Assembly: GCA_026005175.1 (NCBI GenBank)
Contig: BPKO01000007.1
Span: 1 to 64,000, forward strand
Origin: Candidatus Tectimicrobiota bacterium
GTDB lineage: Bacteria; Tectomicrobia; Entotheonellia; Entotheonellales; Entotheonellaceae
Length of the DNA: 64,000 nucleotides
Reading direction: 5' to 3'
How positions within the stretch are numbered: position 1 is the stretch's first letter; every line of letters starts with the position of its first letter. The translations under genes and the position numbers were made by a program. The notes under the pieces are model-generated. The model made no database searches. It saw nothing but the letters and a program-made list of their open reading frames with translations, and was not told where the DNA came from. Shown here in pieces: positions 8,865-23,820 of this stretch.

Positions 8865-9146
8865 TCACCAAATTTCGATGTGATAGTCAATCAAGTCAAC
8901 GACGTACATCGACTCGATAAAGTTCACCACCTTGCTCAAGATGCCGTTGGCATGGTCGGTGGCCGTGCTGACCACCGCCACCCCCAGGGTGGTTCGCTGC
9001 CACTTGTCTTGATGATCGACTTCCGCAACGGCGACGTTGAACTGGTTGCGCACCCGGGTAATGATGCTCTTGACGACTTGCCGCTTGGCTTTTAACGAGT
9101 GGGGTTCCCGCATGCGCAGTTCGATCGTACACACCCCGACGTGCAT
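8865..9146 (-). CDS. ylxP: YlxP-like DUF503 protein
   Basis: This 93-residue protein belongs to DUF503, a small ferredoxin-fold family encoded between infB and rbfA in many bacteria. Typical features are the start MHVGVCTIELRM, then HSLKAKRQVVKSIITRVRNQFNVAVAEV and the late VVSTATDHANGILSKVVNFIE. A role in ribosome maturation has been proposed from position; the biochemistry is not settled. Spacing to infB (24 bases) and rbfA (7 bases) fits one operon. Confidence 0.92.
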   Translation of the reverse strand: MHVGVCTIELRMREPHSLKAKRQVVKSIITRVRNQFNVAVAEVDHQDKWQRTTLGVAVVSTATDHANGILSKVVNFIESMYVVDLIDYHIEIW

Positions 9147-9170: not shown

Positions 9171-11192
<2,022 letters not shown>

Positions 11193-13812: not shown

Positions 13813-14883
13813 TCAGCGACGAAAGAGCAAATTGACGATGTCGTTGTAAAAGGCAAAGACCATCAACGCGACGAGAATGAGCAGGCCGAGCTGCTGCGCC
13901 AGTTCTCGCTTGCGGCTGCTGAGCGGGCTGCCCTTGATGAGCTCAATGGCAAAAAAGAGAAGATGGCCGCCATCTAGCACCGGAATAGGCAAGAGGTTGA
14001 GAATGGCCAGACTCACACTAATCCCGGCAGTAAAGAAAATCACGTTGCGCCATCCGTGGTGGGCCTGGCGGCCCACTTCCCGTGCAATCCCTAGCGGGCC
14101 GGCCAGGCTCTCCGAAGCAGGAATTTCGCCACTGAGCACTTCGCCCAGCCCCACAATGGTGAGGTACGTAATGCGCCACGTCCACACCACCCCCTGCCCG
14201 AGTGCCGCCAGCGGGTTGGCCCGCTCGACCCGCACCGCAGCCGGACGCAGCTCGACGCCAATCCGCCACTCCCCGGCCAACGGATCCCGCTGCGGCGTCA
14301 CGGAGACGCTTAGCACCTCTCCGCCGCGTCGCACCTGAAAGACCAGCGCCTGTCCCTCGCTGTCCACGATATGGCGCTTTAACTCGCGGATGCGCGTCAC
14401 CGGGTGGCCATTGACGGTGACCACGACGTCTCCCGGTAACAATCCGGCCTCTGCGGCCGCGGACTCGGGCAGTACCTGCCCAATCTGCACCGATTCTTCG
14501 ACCGGAATGCCCACGGTATAAATAAAGGCAATGAGGAAAATCGCAAAGAAGAAATTGAAGAAAGGCCCCGCCGCTACGATGAGGATCCGCTTCCAGAGGG
14601 GCTGGTGCGTGAAAGAGCGTCCCGGCTCCCCCACCTCTTCCTCCGGGCTTTCGCCGTACATCTTGACGTATCCCCCCAGCGGGACCGTCGAGATCCAGTA
14701 CTCGGTCTCGCCCCAGCGCCGGCGCCACAGCGCCGGCCCAAACCCCAAGGAAAAGCGCTCGACACGCACGCCTGCCCATTTGGCCAGCAGGAAGTGGCCA
14801 AGCTCGTGCACGAAAATCAAGGCGCCGAGGACAAGAAGGAACAATAATCCCGTATCCAGAATCCCTGCCGTGGTCACCTGCAA
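13813..14883 (-). CDS. rseP: Site-2 intramembrane zinc metalloprotease (RseP/RasP family)
   Basis: This protease family cuts transmembrane regulators such as anti-sigma factors inside the inner membrane. The 356-residue product has the zinc motif HELGH near residue 27 in the first membrane helix. A single PDZ domain follows (VLPESAAAEAGLLPGDVVVTVNG), then the C-terminal LNLLPIPVLDGGHLLFF, which supplies the third zinc ligand, and more membrane helices. E. coli RseP has two PDZ domains; one is common elsewhere. It follows the lolA-like gene. The dxr-rseP linkage seen in many genomes is absent, since dxr lies at 33983. Confidence 0.93.
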   Translation of the reverse strand: MQVTTAGILDTGLLFLLVLGALIFVHELGHFLLAKWAGVRVERFSLGFGPALWRRRWGETEYWISTVPLGGYVKMYGESPEEEVGEPGRSFTHQPLWKRILIVAAGPFFNFFFAIFLIAFIYTVGIPVEESVQIGQVLPESAAAEAGLLPGDVVVTVNGHPVTRIRELKRHIVDSEGQALVFQVRRGGEVLSVSVTPQRDPLAGEWRIGVELRPAAVRVERANPLAALGQGVVWTWRITYLTIVGLGEVLSGEIPASESLAGPLGIAREVGRQAHHGWRNVIFFTAGISVSLAILNLLPIPVLDGGHLLFFAIELIKGSPLSSRKRELAQQLGLLILVALMVFAFYNDIVNLLFRR

Positions 14884-14934: not shown

Positions 14935-15594
14935 TTACCGTGGCCCCCGGATATCCGCAGGGGTAAGGATTTCCGTATCTGGAGGCAGCGTGAGGGCAAA
15001 CGTCCGGGCGGGCAAGCTCGCATGACGCTGCACGGCTGACAGGCGTATTTCGGTCACATTGCCAATGGGGTCGAGAATCCGCAGCTGCTCGATCAAAGAC
15101 GTCTGGGCGTTCACTGCAATGTGCAACTCCGTAAAACCCGCCTGCGGCATCCGCGGCTCAAGGCGCAACCACTCCCTCCCTGCCTCCTGCGTGGGAAGGG
15201 GAGTGATGACAAACGCCTCCTGCAATTTACCAACCCCGGCCAGAAAAAGCAACGCTACCCCCGTGCGCTCCGATTCCGGCACCGCGCTGCGCAAGACCTG
15301 CTTGCGCCGCGGGGTATAGATCTGCAACGTCTCCCCGTCGTACAGCACCGTCTGGGCTTCCGGAGCCGTGTATTCCCACCGCACGTAGTGCGGCTTGGCA
15401 AGATAGAGGCGGCCCGACGACGTCTGCTGCCGGTTGAGTGCCGAAAGGGTGGTGACTTGGACGAACTCGGCACTCAGCGCCGGGGTTTGCTCGTAAGCCT
15501 GCTGGATTTTGGCCACCAGCGCATCCAGTTCCCCTGCCCAGCTGGCCACCCCTAGCCCTAGAAGGATACCCCAGACCACGAGGTGTCTCGACAC
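14935..15594 (-). CDS. lolA: LolA-like outer-membrane lipoprotein carrier protein
   Basis: LolA-family proteins ferry lipoproteins across the periplasm. The 219-residue product starts with a signal peptide (LVVWGILLGLGVASWAG). The mature part follows the family pattern: SAEFVQVTTLSALNRQQTSSGRLYLAKPHYVRWEYTAPEAQTVLYDG, with LQIYTPRRKQV and a late LRILDPIGNVTEIRLS. It lies between lpxC and rseP, an envelope-biogenesis context. A related LolA-like lipid carrier with other cargo remains possible. Confidence 0.82.
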   Translation of the reverse strand: MSRHLVVWGILLGLGVASWAGELDALVAKIQQAYEQTPALSAEFVQVTTLSALNRQQTSSGRLYLAKPHYVRWEYTAPEAQTVLYDGETLQIYTPRRKQVLRSAVPESERTGVALLFLAGVGKLQEAFVITPLPTQEAGREWLRLEPRMPQAGFTELHIAVNAQTSLIEQLRILDPIGNVTEIRLSAVQRHASLPARTFALTLPPDTEILTPADIRGPR

Positions 15595-15615: not shown

Positions 15616-16929
15616 TCAAGCCCGCAGCAGAGCCTGGCGCAAGCACCGCACCAGCGCGATGTTCTCCGTGTGCCCGGTCATAGAAGCACGAAGGTGACCG
15701 CGCACCGGCCGGCCGAGCAGGCAGAGATCCCCGAGGAGGTCTAAGATCTTGTGGCGCGCCAGTTCGTCGGGGAACCGCAGCGGCGTCGTGTTGATCACCC
15801 GCCCCCCGTCGAGCAAGATCACGTTGTTGAGGCGCCCCCCGGCCACGAGCCCCAGCGCGTGAAGCCGCTCGACGTCCTGCACCGAGGCAAAGGTGCGCGC
15901 CGGCGCAATCTCGCGCCTGTAGCTGCTGCCATCGCGATGCTCGTACGACACCTCCTGCACCCCAATCGGCGGGGGATACTGCAACCGGTACGTCACCCGC
16001 AGTCCGTCGTACGGTTCGATGACCAGCGACCGGAAGGGGGACTGCCCCACCGTGTAACAGCGATCAACGACCAATTCTTCCACCGTGGCGGGCTGCTCTT
16101 CGATTCCGGCTTCGGCCAGTGCCTGGGCAAAGGCCAGCGCCGAGCCGTCCATGATGGGAACCTCGCTGCTCAGCTTGACCAGCACGTTGGTCACCCCGTA
16201 GGCGCAAAGCGCCGACAGGAGGTGCTCGACGGTCCATGCCGCGACGCCATTCTTGCCCAGGCTGGTGCAAAAGTCGGTGGAGGTGACGAAGTCCACCAGC
16301 GCCGGCATCCTTTCGCCCGTCGCCAGGTCGTGAAACACAATCCCGCTGTTAGGCGGCAGCGGCGCCAGCACCACCCCGGTGCGCAAGCCCGTCTGGAGCC
16401 CCTGGCCGTGCAGCACGACCGGGCGGCGCAGGGTGCGCTGCCGCCGCTTCCCTTGAGGGAGAAGCCCCGCGGGCACCGCCCGCGGCAAGGCCGACAGCGC
16501 AGCCGGGGCGGCAACCGACGCTACCTGCTCCGCAGTGAACCTTCTGGCCTGCGCCTCGCGTTGCTTTGGCTGCTTGAGGTGGCAAATGGCTCGCAGCACG
16601 GACTCAAACGCACAGGGCTTTTCGAGATAATCTGCGGCCCCCAGCTTGAGCGCCCGCACTGCCAGCGGCACGTTGCCGGACTCTGTCGTGACGATGGCCA
16701 CCGCGGCACTGCCCGCGGCACGCAGCGCCGCGAGCAACTCCAAGCCGTCGAGGCCAGGCAGCCAGAGGTCAAGCACCACCACGTCGGGCACGAGGGTGTG
16801 TGCCATGGCCAGTCCCTGCACGCCGTCCGGCGCCCACCACGCCTCGAAGCCCGCGTGGCGTAGCGCTGCAAGCAAGGCGCTAGCCCATGCCGCATCGCTG
16901 TCGACGATCAAAACCGTGTCTTTAGCCAT
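15616..16929 (-). CDS. lpxC: LpxC deacetylase with N-terminal response-regulator receiver domain
   Basis: LpxC removes acetate from UDP-3-O-acyl-GlcNAc, the committed step of lipid A synthesis, using zinc. Residues 1-~115 of this 437-residue protein form a receiver domain: acidic D10 and D12, phosphoacceptor D54 in VVLDLWLPGLDG, T81/T82 in VTTESGN and K104 in YLEKPC. A linker to ~165 leads to LpxC proper. There TVEHLLSAL gives zinc ligand H236, ARHKILDLLGD gives H393 and D397, and SMTGHTENIAL gives H420. All catalytic residues are present. ATG 16929 is the start that includes the whole receiver domain. The classical acidic pair is D-S-D rather than D-D, so phosphorylation is likely but unproven. 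No kinase gene lies nearby; lolA-like and rseP follow. Confidence 0.95.
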   Translation of the reverse strand: MAKDTVLIVDSDAAWASALLAALRHAGFEAWWAPDGVQGLAMAHTLVPDVVVLDLWLPGLDGLELLAALRAAGSAAVAIVTTESGNVPLAVRALKLGAADYLEKPCAFESVLRAICHLKQPKQREAQARRFTAEQVASVAAPAALSALPRAVPAGLLPQGKRRQRTLRRPVVLHGQGLQTGLRTGVVLAPLPPNSGIVFHDLATGERMPALVDFVTSTDFCTSLGKNGVAAWTVEHLLSALCAYGVTNVLVKLSSEVPIMDGSALAFAQALAEAGIEEQPATVEELVVDRCYTVGQSPFRSLVIEPYDGLRVTYRLQYPPPIGVQEVSYEHRDGSSYRREIAPARTFASVQDVERLHALGLVAGGRLNNVILLDGGRVINTTPLRFPDELARHKILDLLGDLCLLGRPVRGHLRASMTGHTENIALVRCLRQALLRA

Positions 16930-17026
16930 ACCCTCGTGATCCAGACGAGCATCCTCCTTTAACCGGCATGCTACCGAAGGCCCGCGTTGCAGACAAGCGC
17001 CGGGCACGCTTCCCGCACCGTGGCCG

Positions 17027-19675
17027 CTACGGCAGTTTCCTGGCCATCGCCTGCAGTTCGGCAAGCTTGTTCAGCGCCGCCAACGGGGAGAGTTCCTCCA
17101 CGGGGAGCTGCTGCAATTCGCGAATCAGCCGGGCTGAGAGGTCGTCAAAGAGCGACAGCTGCTCGGGGCGCTTCTCTGCCGACCGCGCTTCCAGCGCTTG
17201 GCCCACCGGCCGCCGGGCGGTGGCTTCAAACGTGGCCAGGATCTGGCGTGCCCGCTCCAGTACCGCCGCCGGCAGTCCGGCCAGGCGCGCCACGTGCAGG
17301 CCATAGCTGCGATCGGCGCTGCCTTCGAGGATCTTGCGCAGAAACACGATGCTTTCTCCCCACTCGCGCACCGCCGCGTTGTAGTTCCGCACCCGCTCTA
17401 ACGTGGCGGCCAAGGCGGTCAGCTCGTGGTAATGCGTGGCAAACAGGGTGCGGGGGCGCAAATCGCCGTGGTTGTGGAGGTACTCGATGACTGCCCAGGC
17501 AATGCTCATGCCGTCATAGGTGCTCGTGCCACGCCCGATTTCGTCAAGGAGAATCAGGCTACGTGCCGTCATGTTGTGGAGGATGTGGGCCGTCTCGAGC
17601 ATCTCGACCATGAAGGTGCTGCGGCCTTTTGTCAGCACGTCCTGCGCGCCAATCCGGGTAAAAATGCGGTCCACCAGGCCAATGCGCGCCTCCCGGGCCG
17701 GCACAAAGCTGCCGATCTGCGCCAGAAGCACAATGAGAGCCACCTGCCGCATATACGTCGACTTGCCGGCCATGTTCGGGCCGGTCAGGAGCACGATCTG
17801 CTGGCGGTGGCGATCCAGAAAGGTATCGTTAGGAACAAAGCGTTCCTCCTGGTAGACCGCTTCCAACGTGGGGTGGCGGCCATCGACAATGGACAGCACG
17901 TCGCTGTCGTCGAGCTGCGGCCGGCAGTATTGCCGCCTGACCGCCACCTCGGCCAGCGCGGCGACCGCATCGAGCTGGCTGAGAACATGGGCCATGCGCT
18001 GCAGGCGCGGGATGTGGGCGACCAGCTCCTGCCGCAAGGCCTCGTAGAGCTGCTGCTCGAGCTGCAACGCCTCTTCCTCGGCGCGCAGCATCTGTACTTC
18101 GCGGTCCTTGAGCGCCGGAGTGATGAAGCGCTCGGCGTTGACCAGCGTCTGCTTGCGGACGTACTCCGGCGGCACCTGCGCCAGGTGGCTCTTGCGCACC
18201 TCGATGTAGTAGCCAAAGACGCGGTTGAAGCCCACGCGCAGCGAGGGAATCCCGGTGCGCTGGCGCTCTTGCGCTTCGAAGAGGCTCAACCAGTCCTTGC
18301 CAGAAGACCCGGCAGCGCGCAGGGCATCCAGTTCGGCATGGTAGCCGGGGCGAATGACCCCGCCTTCCCGCACCGTGGCAGGCGGATCATCGACCAGCGC
18401 CGCCGCGATGCGCTCGGCCACGTCGGCCAGCGCATCCCACTGGGCTTGCAAGCGTTGGAGGAAAGGACTCTGACACGGCTGCAAGGCAGCGGCGACTGCC
18501 GGCAGCTGGGCAATCGAGTGGCGAAGCGCCAGCGCCTCCCGCGGCCCCAGCGTCCCCAGGGCCAGCCGGCCGACCAAGCGCTCCACATCCGCTACCGCGG
18601 CCAGGGCCTGGCGTACGTGCTGCCGCACGGCGGGCTGCGCCACCAGCTCTGCCACCGCTTCTTGCCGCTCGCGCAGCGGCTCAAGCTGGCACAGCGGCTG
18701 GGACAGCCACTGGCGCAGCAGGCGGCCGCCCATGGCGGTGACGGTGTGATCGATGACGTCAAACAGCGACCCTTTTTGCGTCCCCTGCGCGGTAAACACC
18801 TCCAGATGGCGCTGGCTGGTTTCGTCGAGGATCAGAAAATCGCCGGGGTGATAAAGCCGCAGGCCTGTCAAATGCGCCAGGGCCTGCTGCTGCGTCTCTT
18901 GCACGTAGGCCAGCAAGGCGCCCGCCGCCGCCACCACCAGAGGGTTGTCTTCACAGCCAAAGCCGGCCAGGGTGGTCACGGCAAAGTGGGCCATCAAGCG
19001 GCGGGCGGCCTGCGGGGGCTGGAAGTGTTCGGCGCCCCAGGGCTGAAAGACCACCGCCGCGCCTGGCGGGTCCTGGGTGAGAAAATCCAGCGGCACCGGG
19101 GAGGGCTCCGGCACGAGCACCTCGCGGGGCTGCACGCGGGCAAATTCGCAGCGCAGCGCCTGTTGCCACGTCGCCTCGCTCCAAGCAGTGGCGGCAAAGG
19201 TGCCGGTCGAAAGATCGAGGTAAGCAAACCCCGCTCCCCCCGGCGTCGGGGCGATGCTGGCAAGAAAGTGGTGCGCCTTGGGGATCAGCAGCCCGCCGCT
19301 GGTCACCGTCCCCGGCGTGATCACCCGCACGATGTCACGCGACACCAGCCCTTGCGCCTGCCGCGGGTCCTCGAGCTGCTCACAGATGGCGACTTTGAAT
19401 CCCTGCTGCAAGAGGCGATCGATGTAGCCCTCGGCGCTGTGGACGGGAACCCCACACATGGGAATGGGGTCCTCCTTCTGGCGCGAGGTCAGCACGATGT
19501 CCAGCGCCCGGGCAGCCACCACGGCGTCCTCAAAAAAGAGCTCGTAAAAGTCGCCCAGGCGGAAAAGCAGCAGCGCATCACCAGCCTTCTGCTTCAGGCG
19601 CAGGTACTGCGCCATCACCGGCGTCAGCTGGCGCGGCGGCGAAGCCGCTGCCGTTGCTTCTTTCTGCTCAGCCAC
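17027..19675 (-). CDS. mutS: DNA mismatch repair ATPase MutS
   Basis: MutS recognises mismatches and recruits MutL. The intact 882-residue product has the mismatch-binding Phe-x-Glu motif in LFRLGDFYELFFEDA. Connector, lever and clamp domains follow, then an ABC-type ATPase with TGPNMAGKSTYMRQ (Walker A), a signature region near DVLTKGRSTFMVEM, and ILLDEIGRGTSTYDG (Walker B). Length and order are standard. A GTG start at 19675 overlaps the ybeY stop by eight bases, implying coupling. lpxC follows after ~97 bases. Confidence 0.97.
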   Translation of the reverse strand: MAEQKEATAAASPPRQLTPVMAQYLRLKQKAGDALLLFRLGDFYELFFEDAVVAARALDIVLTSRQKEDPIPMCGVPVHSAEGYIDRLLQQGFKVAICEQLEDPRQAQGLVSRDIVRVITPGTVTSGGLLIPKAHHFLASIAPTPGGAGFAYLDLSTGTFAATAWSEATWQQALRCEFARVQPREVLVPEPSPVPLDFLTQDPPGAAVVFQPWGAEHFQPPQAARRLMAHFAVTTLAGFGCEDNPLVVAAAGALLAYVQETQQQALAHLTGLRLYHPGDFLILDETSQRHLEVFTAQGTQKGSLFDVIDHTVTAMGGRLLRQWLSQPLCQLEPLRERQEAVAELVAQPAVRQHVRQALAAVADVERLVGRLALGTLGPREALALRHSIAQLPAVAAALQPCQSPFLQRLQAQWDALADVAERIAAALVDDPPATVREGGVIRPGYHAELDALRAAGSSGKDWLSLFEAQERQRTGIPSLRVGFNRVFGYYIEVRKSHLAQVPPEYVRKQTLVNAERFITPALKDREVQMLRAEEEALQLEQQLYEALRQELVAHIPRLQRMAHVLSQLDAVAALAEVAVRRQYCRPQLDDSDVLSIVDGRHPTLEAVYQEERFVPNDTFLDRHRQQIVLLTGPNMAGKSTYMRQVALIVLLAQIGSFVPAREARIGLVDRIFTRIGAQDVLTKGRSTFMVEMLETAHILHNMTARSLILLDEIGRGTSTYDGMSIAWAVIEYLHNHGDLRPRTLFATHYHELTALAATLERVRNYNAAVREWGESIVFLRKILEGSADRSYGLHVARLAGLPAAVLERARQILATFEATARRPVGQALEARSAEKRPEQLSLFDDLSARLIRELQQLPVEELSPLAALNKLAELQAMARKLP

Positions 19676-21134: not shown

Positions 21135-23820
21135 TCAAGTCAACGCGGCAAGCAGGGTTTCCTTGAGGCGCGCCAGCGTCGCCTCGTCGACGATTTTCTT
21201 CCTCGCGGCGTCTGTGACGTAGAACACGTCGATGGCGCGGTTGGCTTCCGTAGAAATTTTGGCCAAGGCCACGTCAAGACCGCTCTCGTACAGCAGCCGG
21301 GTTAGCTTGTAGAGCAGGCCGAGCTGGTCCTGCGCCTGCACTTCAATGACGGTATAGCTGTCCGAACAGGCGTTGTCGATGGTCACCTGAGGGGGCTGCG
21401 CAAAGGCTTGCAGTTTGCGCTCGTACGAGGGCAGCCGGCGCAAGGTCGGCACCTCGGGCCAGGTGCCGGGCGCGGCCAGCGCTGCCACCAGGTCCGCCTG
21501 CACCTGTCGCCAGACGTGGGCGTCGGTCACCGGGGTGCGCGAGAGGGTCTCGACTTGCAACGTATCGATGGCCAGCCCCTCTTCCGAGGTGTAGATCTGG
21601 GCTCCGAGAATGTTGAGGCGGTTTTTGCTCAGCGCCCCGGCAATCATGGCAAACACCCCGCGGCGCTCGCGCAAGCAGAAAGTGACGGTGGTAAAGCCAA
21701 CCGCGGTGTTGTGCTCCACGTCCAGCACCACCGGTGCGGTGAGCTGCGGCTGCGTCAGGCGAATGTGCTTGGCAATGGTCTCGGGCGGCGTCACCACGAG
21801 GTACTTGACGGGCATGGTGGCCAGGAACCGCTCGACGTTTTCCGGAGCGTAGCCTTCACCCAGGCTCTCGAGCACCAGCGGGCGCAGCCGCTGCTGCAGC
21901 TCTGCCCGTGACAGGGTGGTCTCTGCGCCGCGGCGCAGCAAGTAGTCAAGGGTGCGGCGGTAGAGGTCGGCCAGCAGCGACGCCTTCCACACCGTCCACA
22001 CGTCTGGCCCCACCGCCGAGGTGTCGGCGTAGGTCAGGAGATAGAGGTGGTCGAGGGCCGGCACGCTCCCTACCCGCTCGGCAAAATCGGCAATGACTTT
22101 GGGATCGGTGATGTCGCGGCGCTGGGCAAGGTGATTCATCACCAGGTGATTGACCACCAGCTTGTCGACCAGCTGGCGCTGCTCGTCGGAAAGAGCCAGG
22201 CGCGCACACACCGCGGCAGCCAGCTCGCCGCTGCGGTAGACGTGGGAGGCACGTGCGCCGGCCCCACGTCCTTGCCGAGGTCGTGCAGGAGCAAGGCCAG
22301 CTTGAGCAGGGCCTTGTCCGGGAGCTGGCGGTAGAGCTGGGCAAAGGGGCGAAGGTGCGGCTCGCGCGTGGTTTCTAGGTCCTCAAGCACTTCGATGCTG
22401 CGCAGCGAGTGCTCATCGACCGTGTAGCGATGGTACAGATCGTACTGCACCAAGCACGTCAGCGCCGCAAACTCCGGAATGTATGCGCCCAGTACGCCGT
22501 GGCGGTGCATGGCCCGCAAGGTGGCCGCGGCTTGCGGCTGGGAGAGAATCTCCCAAAACACCGCCCGCGCCTGCGGCGAGCGGCGCATGGCTTCAGTAGC
22601 CAGGAGGGACGCATGGGCGCGGATGGCACGCGACAGCTCTGGAGCCAAGGCGGCGCGGTACCGCTGCGCCTTGGCAAAGGCCTGCAGCAGAAGAAGCGGC
22701 TGCTGCGCCAAGTGCTCGGCCACGGGAAGGTGGGCGTAGTGCAGACGCCCGTCGCGAGAAGGACAAAGCCGTCGCCCACCGCTTGCGGGCGGCGGAACCA
22801 CCAGCGCGGGCGGGGGACGTGGGTCACGGCATCCAGGGTGGCAAGGCAGAAGTCGTAAATCACGTTGGCGTGCAGGTAGTACGTCTTGAGAAACTGCTCG
22901 ACGGCCCGCTTTTCCGCCGAAGGCGCAAAGCGCAGCTCCGCTGCCAGCTTTTCCTGCACGTCGACGGCAAGCACGTCGTGCTTGCGCCCGTAGTGGTAGT
23001 GCAGCCCGTTGCGCACGGTAAAGAGAAAGTCGAGCGCCGCTTCCACGGCCTCGGCCTCGGCCGAGGACAGCACGCCGCGGGCCACCAGCTCGGCAAGCGA
23101 GCGCGTCCCATAGGTGGCCATGCTCAGCCAGAGCGCCGTGTGGTAGTCGCGCAGGCCACCGGGGCTCTCTTTGACGTTGGGCTCCATGAGGTTGACGGTG
23201 TTGGCAAACGCCGCATGCCGGCGGCGACACTCCGTCACTTTCTGCCGCACGAAGAGACGCCGGCGCCGGCGCGTGAACCGCCGCCCCCCCACCTCTTCCT
23301 GAAACCACCGAAAGAGCGACTCATCCCCGTCGACCAGCCGCGCTTCCAGCATCGCCGTTTGCGCCGTGACGTCGGTCTCTGCCATGCGCAGCGCATCGCG
23401 CCGCGTCCGCACGCTATGCCCCAGGGTGAAGCCGGCGTCCCACAGCAAGTAGAGCGTCTCCCGGATCACCCTGTCGGGGGGCTGGGGGTGGCAGAGGAAC
23501 ATCAAGTCAATGTCCGAAAACGGGTTGAGCTCTCCGCGCCCATAGCCTCCCAGCGCCAGCACCGCACACGGCGAAGTGTCGGTTGGGTGGCAGGCCAGCG
23601 CATAGCGAAACACGGTGCGCACCACGTCGTCGACCAGCGCGGTCAGGTGGCGAACCACATTGCGTCCGCGGGCGCCCCCGCAGTGTTCCTGGTAAATGCG
23701 CTCCCGCGCTGCGGCAATGAGGCGTTTGAGCCCTTGCAAAAAGACGGGGCGGTCGTAGCGCCGATCCAGAAGGGTGGCAAAGGAGCGGGGAAACGCCGCT
23801 TCGGAGGCCGAAAACGTCAT
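21135..23820 (-). CDS. glnD: Bifunctional PII uridylyltransferase/uridylyl-removing enzyme, two frame breaks
   Basis: GlnD senses glutamine and adds or removes UMP on PII proteins. The N-terminal nucleotidyltransferase shows LGGYGRGELNPFSDIDLMF, followed by a GlnD-specific helical region with PNVKESPGGLRDYHTALWL. The HD domain has LLHDLGKDVG. Two C-terminal ACT domains follow (VTFCLRERRGVFAMIAGALS, then VIEVQAQDQLGLLYKLTRLL). The frame breaks near 22757 and 22262. Both fit one missing base, unlike the other breaks in this window, which fit an extra base. Corrected length is ~895 residues. No PII gene is in view. Confidence 0.92.

Follow-up and report, generated by a model that had tools for sequence, protein, structure and literature searches.

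How is the committed step of lipid A making governed in a bacterium whose LpxC, the enzyme of that step, lies on the same polypeptide as a response-regulator receiver domain? The question is raised by a gene at 15616..16929 on the reverse strand of the window, by which we mean the whole 64,000-nucleotide stretch of Candidatus Tectimicrobiota DNA analysed here. The gene encodes 437 amino acids without an internal stop. Pfam and NCBIfam searches divide its product into an NtrX-type receiver domain with D-L-W read from the phospho-Asp (residues 1–119; 16573..16929), a linker (residues 120–159; 16453..16572) and an LpxC deacetylase domain (residues 160–437; 15619..16452) with a 17-residue tail past the catalytic His, all on the (-) strand. 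The Response_reg match spans residues 6–115 (E 1.6e-21, far over the cut-off) and the LpxC match, PF03331, residues 164–430 (E 4e-78), covering positions 1–266 of the 268 in the model at 263.1 bits against a cut-off of 27. The NCBIfam lpxC equivalog TIGR00325 scores 221.8 bits against a cut-off of 187.25. A preliminary description, made from the letters of the sequence, had proposed a receiver fused to a complete LpxC with no DNA-binding output domain, and this is what Pfam finds: Response_reg and LpxC, with no AAA+ or HTH domain. The linker had been put at some 50 residues and proves to be about 40; in relatives, AAA+ and HTH domains occupy its place. The two-domain structure for which that description called has been modelled with AlphaFold from an 18-row alignment, giving two confidently folded domains (mean pLDDT 84, pTM 0.80) and a stretch of linker, residues 122–153, with pLDDT under 50 that is predicted to be disordered. 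The N-terminus matches receiver structures with Z up to 23, and residues 160–437 match LpxC crystal structures with Z up to 37.6, the value for Aquifex LpxC, whose fold is the same.

The LpxC half shares with UDP-3-O-acyl-N-acetylglucosamine deacetylases (PF03331/TIGR00325) the whole domain, the zinc ligands and the catalytic Glu and His. The catalytic base E235 and the zinc ligand H236 are encoded at 16222..16227 (-), and the HKILD motif, which supplies the zinc ligands H393 and D397, at 15739..15753 (-). The three ligands thus stand at the residues proposed for them, accompanied by E235 and H420, and all five positions are invariant in 63 of 63 fused proteins. A search of the window genome returned one LpxC match, the fusion itself, and a second, unfused LpxC was found neither there nor in the family genomes nor in the 13 further fusion genomes searched. 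Since LpxD is also present in the window genome, the fusion is most likely the working enzyme of the lipid A pathway, with predicted deacetylase activity. What distinguishes the fused proteins from ordinary LpxC is the addition of an N-terminal receiver or of a whole regulator. They differ from E. coli LpxC at the other end too. The C-terminal FtsH degron region of E. coli comprises 40 residues, whereas the tail past the catalytic His measures 14–22 residues in the seven fused proteins checked. This leaves little room for a degron of the E. coli type, so that another form of control is to be expected.

The simplest objection is that a base error or a chimaeric contig has joined two separate genes. 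Frameshifts in the infB and glnD genes of the window, a possible sign that the assembly contains indel errors, lend this some colour. The fusion recurs, however, in 62 other proteins from independent assemblies and several phyla with conserved boundaries. It is carried by all three same-family relatives and by members of distant phyla, which excludes a base error in the window as its source and makes an artefact of either kind next to inconceivable. In total, the receiver has been confirmed in 63 fused proteins, 22 from a first set and 41 from survey loci; the remaining five survey loci fetched are cut by contig ends. Among the best named matches listed from the genome scan, 13 in number, all 13 are fusions and the fused LpxC is the sole LpxC of each genome; they come from Nitrospinota, Desulfomonile, other Thermodesulfobacteriota, Acidobacteriota and other lineages. 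The survey found LpxC in 40 of 45 genomes in the phylum of G012, in 65 of 77 in that of G009, a genome whose protein clusters with Nitrospinaceae, and in all four in the phylum of G046. Judged from sequence, the fusion extends through the whole of at least two phyla, one of them Nitrospinota by sequence match, and present in further lineages. The earlier suggestion that such fusions occur in a few other lineages was therefore right as to their existence and too cautious as to their number. A 70-row LpxC tree gathers the 22 fused proteins of the first set into a single clade (100/100), apart from all 48 unfused ones, and on this tree the LpxC of the fused proteins is of single origin. Two genomes of the G009 phylum, G126 and G147 (99% and 96% complete), yielded no LpxC match, their relatives being nearly all fused. 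In one Nitrospinota fusion (L054, 1058–3943) the open frame reaches about 295 residues upstream of the receiver.

What is the origin of the receiver? Long forms make up twelve of the first 22 fusions; in their frames of 676–962 residues the receiver is followed by a Sigma54_activat AAA+ domain, an AAA_lid and, in certain cases, an HTH of the Fis type, with LpxC at the end. The HTH is retained in some of them (L037, L039, L047) and lost in L052–L057. The short forms, the window protein included, have neither AAA+ nor HTH. Three loci with an ordinary LpxC (L073, L080, L103) show the corresponding parts as separate genes, lpxC coming first and then genes for an NtrY-like kinase and a regulator that is intact; two of the three have DUF4390 in between. 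These three regulators keep GAFTGA or GSFTGA and FLDE, whilst GAFTGA is found in none of the 12 fused AAA+ domains and their Walker B acid pair is mostly lost. The long forms look like the older members of the clade, each apparently a complete NtrX/NtrC-type regulator with a degenerate AAA+ domain joined to LpxC. Pairwise scores place every one of the 63 fused receivers nearer to the lpxC-linked regulators than to the five other regulators compared. A tree of receiver and AAA+ domains, built on few shared columns, does not resolve the fused receivers and the lpxC-linked regulators as one clade, so that the case for orthology of the receiver is built on pairwise similarity, together with the D-x-W signature and gene neighbourhood.

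Regulators of this type have been linked to lpxC before. In Rhodobacter sphaeroides NtrYX lowers the lpxC transcript, which rises 8.8-fold without NtrYX, though the region upstream of lpxC showed no binding site for NtrX (PMC7240162). Transcription of lpxC is likewise lowered by NtrYX in Caulobacter (PMC12444477). In Desulfovibrio vulgaris lpxC is the only target of the DVU2934 regulator, and in Syntrophobacter fumaroxidans lpxC lies directly upstream of an operon with an orthologous DVU2934-type regulator (PMC3333781). Given this published regulation of lpxC, the simplest reading is an apparent fusion of an NtrX/NtrC-type regulator to its own target. The long forms share with the NtrYX and DVU2934 systems the order of receiver, AAA+ and HTH, the kinase with NtrY_N, HAMP, PAS and HisKA domains, the DUF4390 neighbours and the published link to lpxC. 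They depart from them in the fusion to LpxC and in the absence of GAFTGA from all 12, as do the short forms, the window protein among them, in the deletion of AAA+ and HTH. One could imagine that the fusion is a bifunctional trigger enzyme, at once LpxC and a DNA-binding repressor that senses the demand for lipid A: NtrX acts as a transcription factor elsewhere (PMC7240162), and some long forms do carry the Fis-type HTH. This seems very improbable for a clade in which GAFTGA is gone from all 12 fused AAA+ domains, the HTH has been lost in L052–L057, and neither the window protein nor any other short form contains an AAA+ or HTH domain. By its domains the window protein is not a sigma-54 regulator, and its long relatives are, to judge from their motifs, decayed ones.

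If the old output has decayed, the kinase has been kept in most of the clade. An NtrY-like kinase (NtrY_N, HAMP, PAS, HisKA and HATPase domains) is encoded immediately upstream of the fusion at seven loci: L037, L038, L039, L047, L049, L050 and L051. A profile built from six of these adjacent kinases found an orthologous kinase elsewhere in eight further fusion genomes. No response regulator was found beside these eight orphan kinases on the stretch read, except at L202, where there is one weak regulator match several kilobases away. The fusion-adjacent kinases, the orphans of fusion genomes and the kinases beside unfused lpxC together make up one clade (100/100), in all members of which the phospho-histidine box AHE[IV]KNPL is kept. 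A separate regulator with the D-x-W receiver, a feature common to the fused and the lpxC-linked proteins, was not found among the best-scoring 30 loci fetched from fusion genomes. Taken with the orphan kinases, this suggests that the kinase persists where the fused LpxC is its likely partner. One further frame of 1346 codons, at 8896–12933 of L204 (G061), ends in a kinase that groups with the NtrY-like orthologues on a very long branch; this may be the partner of the L048 fusion in diverged form. Upstream of the NtrY-like kinase, next to fused or unfused lpxC, there is usually a DUF4390 gene, whose product may be a sensor accessory; such genes lie at 14336–15037 in L038, 1472–2056 in L049, 707–1426 in L051, 4799–5395 in L073, 6013–6702 in L103, 6759–7517 in L197, 9429–10121 in L198 and 13584–14273 in L199.

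The receivers themselves are conserved for phosphorylation. The phospho-acceptor D54 (16768..16770, (-) in the window) and the W two residues after it, which completes the D-x-W signature, are present in 63 of 63 fused receivers. The switch residue T82 (16684..16686, (-)) is S or T in all 63, and K104 (16618..16620, (-)) is K in 62 and R in one. All three lie where the preliminary description had placed them. That the phosphorylation residues are held in 62 or 63 of the 63 receivers, despite the decay of the transcriptional output, is difficult to account for if LpxC is not the output. Conservation in nearly all of the 63 supports the view that, in the clade, phosphorylation controls LpxC directly. 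On this reading, the regulator of an NtrY-like membrane kinase would have been joined to lpxC on one occasion; in the majority of descendants the kinase would most likely phosphorylate the receiver and so directly change the output of the attached enzyme, through its amount, placement or activity, whilst the sigma-54 AAA+ and DNA-binding domains would have decayed and then been deleted in several branches. The tether of the short forms, 26–52 residues long, is predicted to be disordered in the window protein, which makes dimerisation, recruitment to the membrane kinase or turnover a likelier route of control than rigid allostery, and the disordered linker of the model offers no structural route from receiver to active site. 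From these patterns we infer phosphotransfer, an effect on LpxC and the sign of that effect.

Does the same hold for the window itself? Its gene order is phoH, ybeY, mutS, fusion, lolA, rseP, as in L032–L034. In L038 (G052) and L051 the order is mutS, DUF4390, kinase, fusion, lolA, rseP, and in the Nitrospinota-type loci L197–L199 it is phoH, ybeY, mutS, DUF4390, kinase. The syntenic anchor mutS (17027..19675, (-)) has homologous neighbours in all of these loci. On the other side of the fusion lie a gene for what we take to be the outer-membrane lipoprotein carrier LolA (14935..15594, (-)), on the same side in relatives, and one presumably for a site-2 protease of the RseP type (13813..14883, (-)), in an order kept in relatives. 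Only 97 bp (16930..17026, (-)) separate the mutS stop from the fusion start, at the place where DUF4390 and the NtrY-like kinase sit in L038 and L051. A profile search found no NtrY-like orthologue in the four genomes of the window family (G000–G003). An NtrY-like kinase elsewhere in the window genome was considered and rejected, as PF19312 has no match there and the best-profile kinases of G000 and G001 fall outside the orthologue clade in the kinase tree. The window genome is 77% complete and could lack the kinase by chance; G002 and G003 are single-contig genomes at 92–93%. The comparison of gene orders suggests that the window family lost kinase and DUF4390 by deletion from the interval that separates mutS and the fusion; its fusions have no AAA+ or HTH domain either.

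The receiver of the window species has changed as well. The preliminary description had read its acidic pocket as D-S-D, and rightly: at D10-S11 (16897..16902, (-)) serine takes the second acid position, where the remaining 62 fused receivers all have D. By fold, by its PF00072 match and by its key residues the window protein belongs to the response regulator superfamily, with a two-acid Mg2+ pocket that is broken here and intact in those 62, the three sister species of the family among them. Within the family, S at 11 and E at 83 are peculiar to the window protein; its sisters have D and G there. Codon 11 is AGC, two bases from an Asp codon, so that a single base error would be insufficient to explain D11S. 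On a fixed topology the window branch measures 1.31 for the receiver and 0.40 for LpxC, a ratio of 3.25 compared with 1.26 across the whole tree, and the receiver branch is the longest of all. The window species thus seems to have a relaxing, fast-evolving switch in which one acid of the Mg2+ pocket has been replaced.

Two other accounts of this receiver have to be weighed. It might belong to an ordinary phosphorylation-controlled fusion that answers to a different histidine kinase, D11S serving only to tune it. The window genome does contain many other histidine kinases (35 matches), D54, T82 and K104 are in place, and with the full pocket kept in three sisters another kinase or acetyl phosphate could phosphorylate D54 in the family. 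The loss of the orthologous kinase, the replacement of an acid that is otherwise universal in the fused receivers and the length of the receiver branch render this a doubtful possibility for the window protein. The same loss of kinase, eroded pocket and accelerated divergence might instead mark the receiver as a relic, LpxC being simply active and its N-terminal domain without a regulatory role in the window species. That is unlikely for a domain with so strong a Response_reg match and a well-folded prediction, which keeps E103 and P105 besides D54, T82 and K104 and stays in frame in all four family members. Because the orthologous kinase is missing, a pocket acid is lost and the receiver evolves fast, a kinase-released LpxC is favoured for the window species, with a receiver that probably folds and would still affect LpxC, independently of phosphorylation or weakly phosphorylated. 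The two proposals of the preliminary description thus part company. A histidine kinase acting on LpxC, with the enzyme as its own output, fits the clade, where receiver chemistry and kinase are kept and the DNA-binding output is degenerate, and is weakened for the window genome; the phosphorylation-independent switch offered beside it is the better guess there. We consider it probable that the cell's LpxC rides on a response regulator that is kinase-controlled in the clade and kinase-released, with a relaxing receiver, in the window species. We also lean, with less assurance, towards the wider proposition of a widespread class of LpxC under direct two-component phosphorylation, born by fusion of a regulator to its target, from which the window family later became kinase-free.

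Receivers that control an attached enzyme or effector are a known kind, represented by CheB, RssB-like PP2C, GGDEF, EAL and HD-GYP proteins. LpxC as such an output appears undescribed in the openly available papers searched, and in a 2025 review of lipid A regulation the words 'receiver' and 'fusion' do not occur. The LpxC–FabZ protein of the Bacteroidota type, seen in L040, is likewise a two-domain LpxC, but there LpxC is followed at its C-terminus by a lipid enzyme, whilst here a signalling domain precedes it. If the kinase acts on the fusion, outer-membrane synthesis could come under a membrane sensor at the level of the enzyme itself, and the clade points to a gene-encoded answer to how LpxC output is set, a sensor kinase acting on the enzyme. 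The loci would also form a rare readable series from a transcriptional circuit to direct enzyme control, running from separate genes through the full fusion, the decayed AAA+ and the receiver alone to a receiver without its kinase.

A minor observation concerns two other genes of the window. Both infB (9641–11192, (-)) and glnD (21135–23820, (-)) are split by frameshifts, and both are single open frames in the sister genomes L033 and L034; the frameshifts are either assembly indel errors or the mark of pseudogenes.
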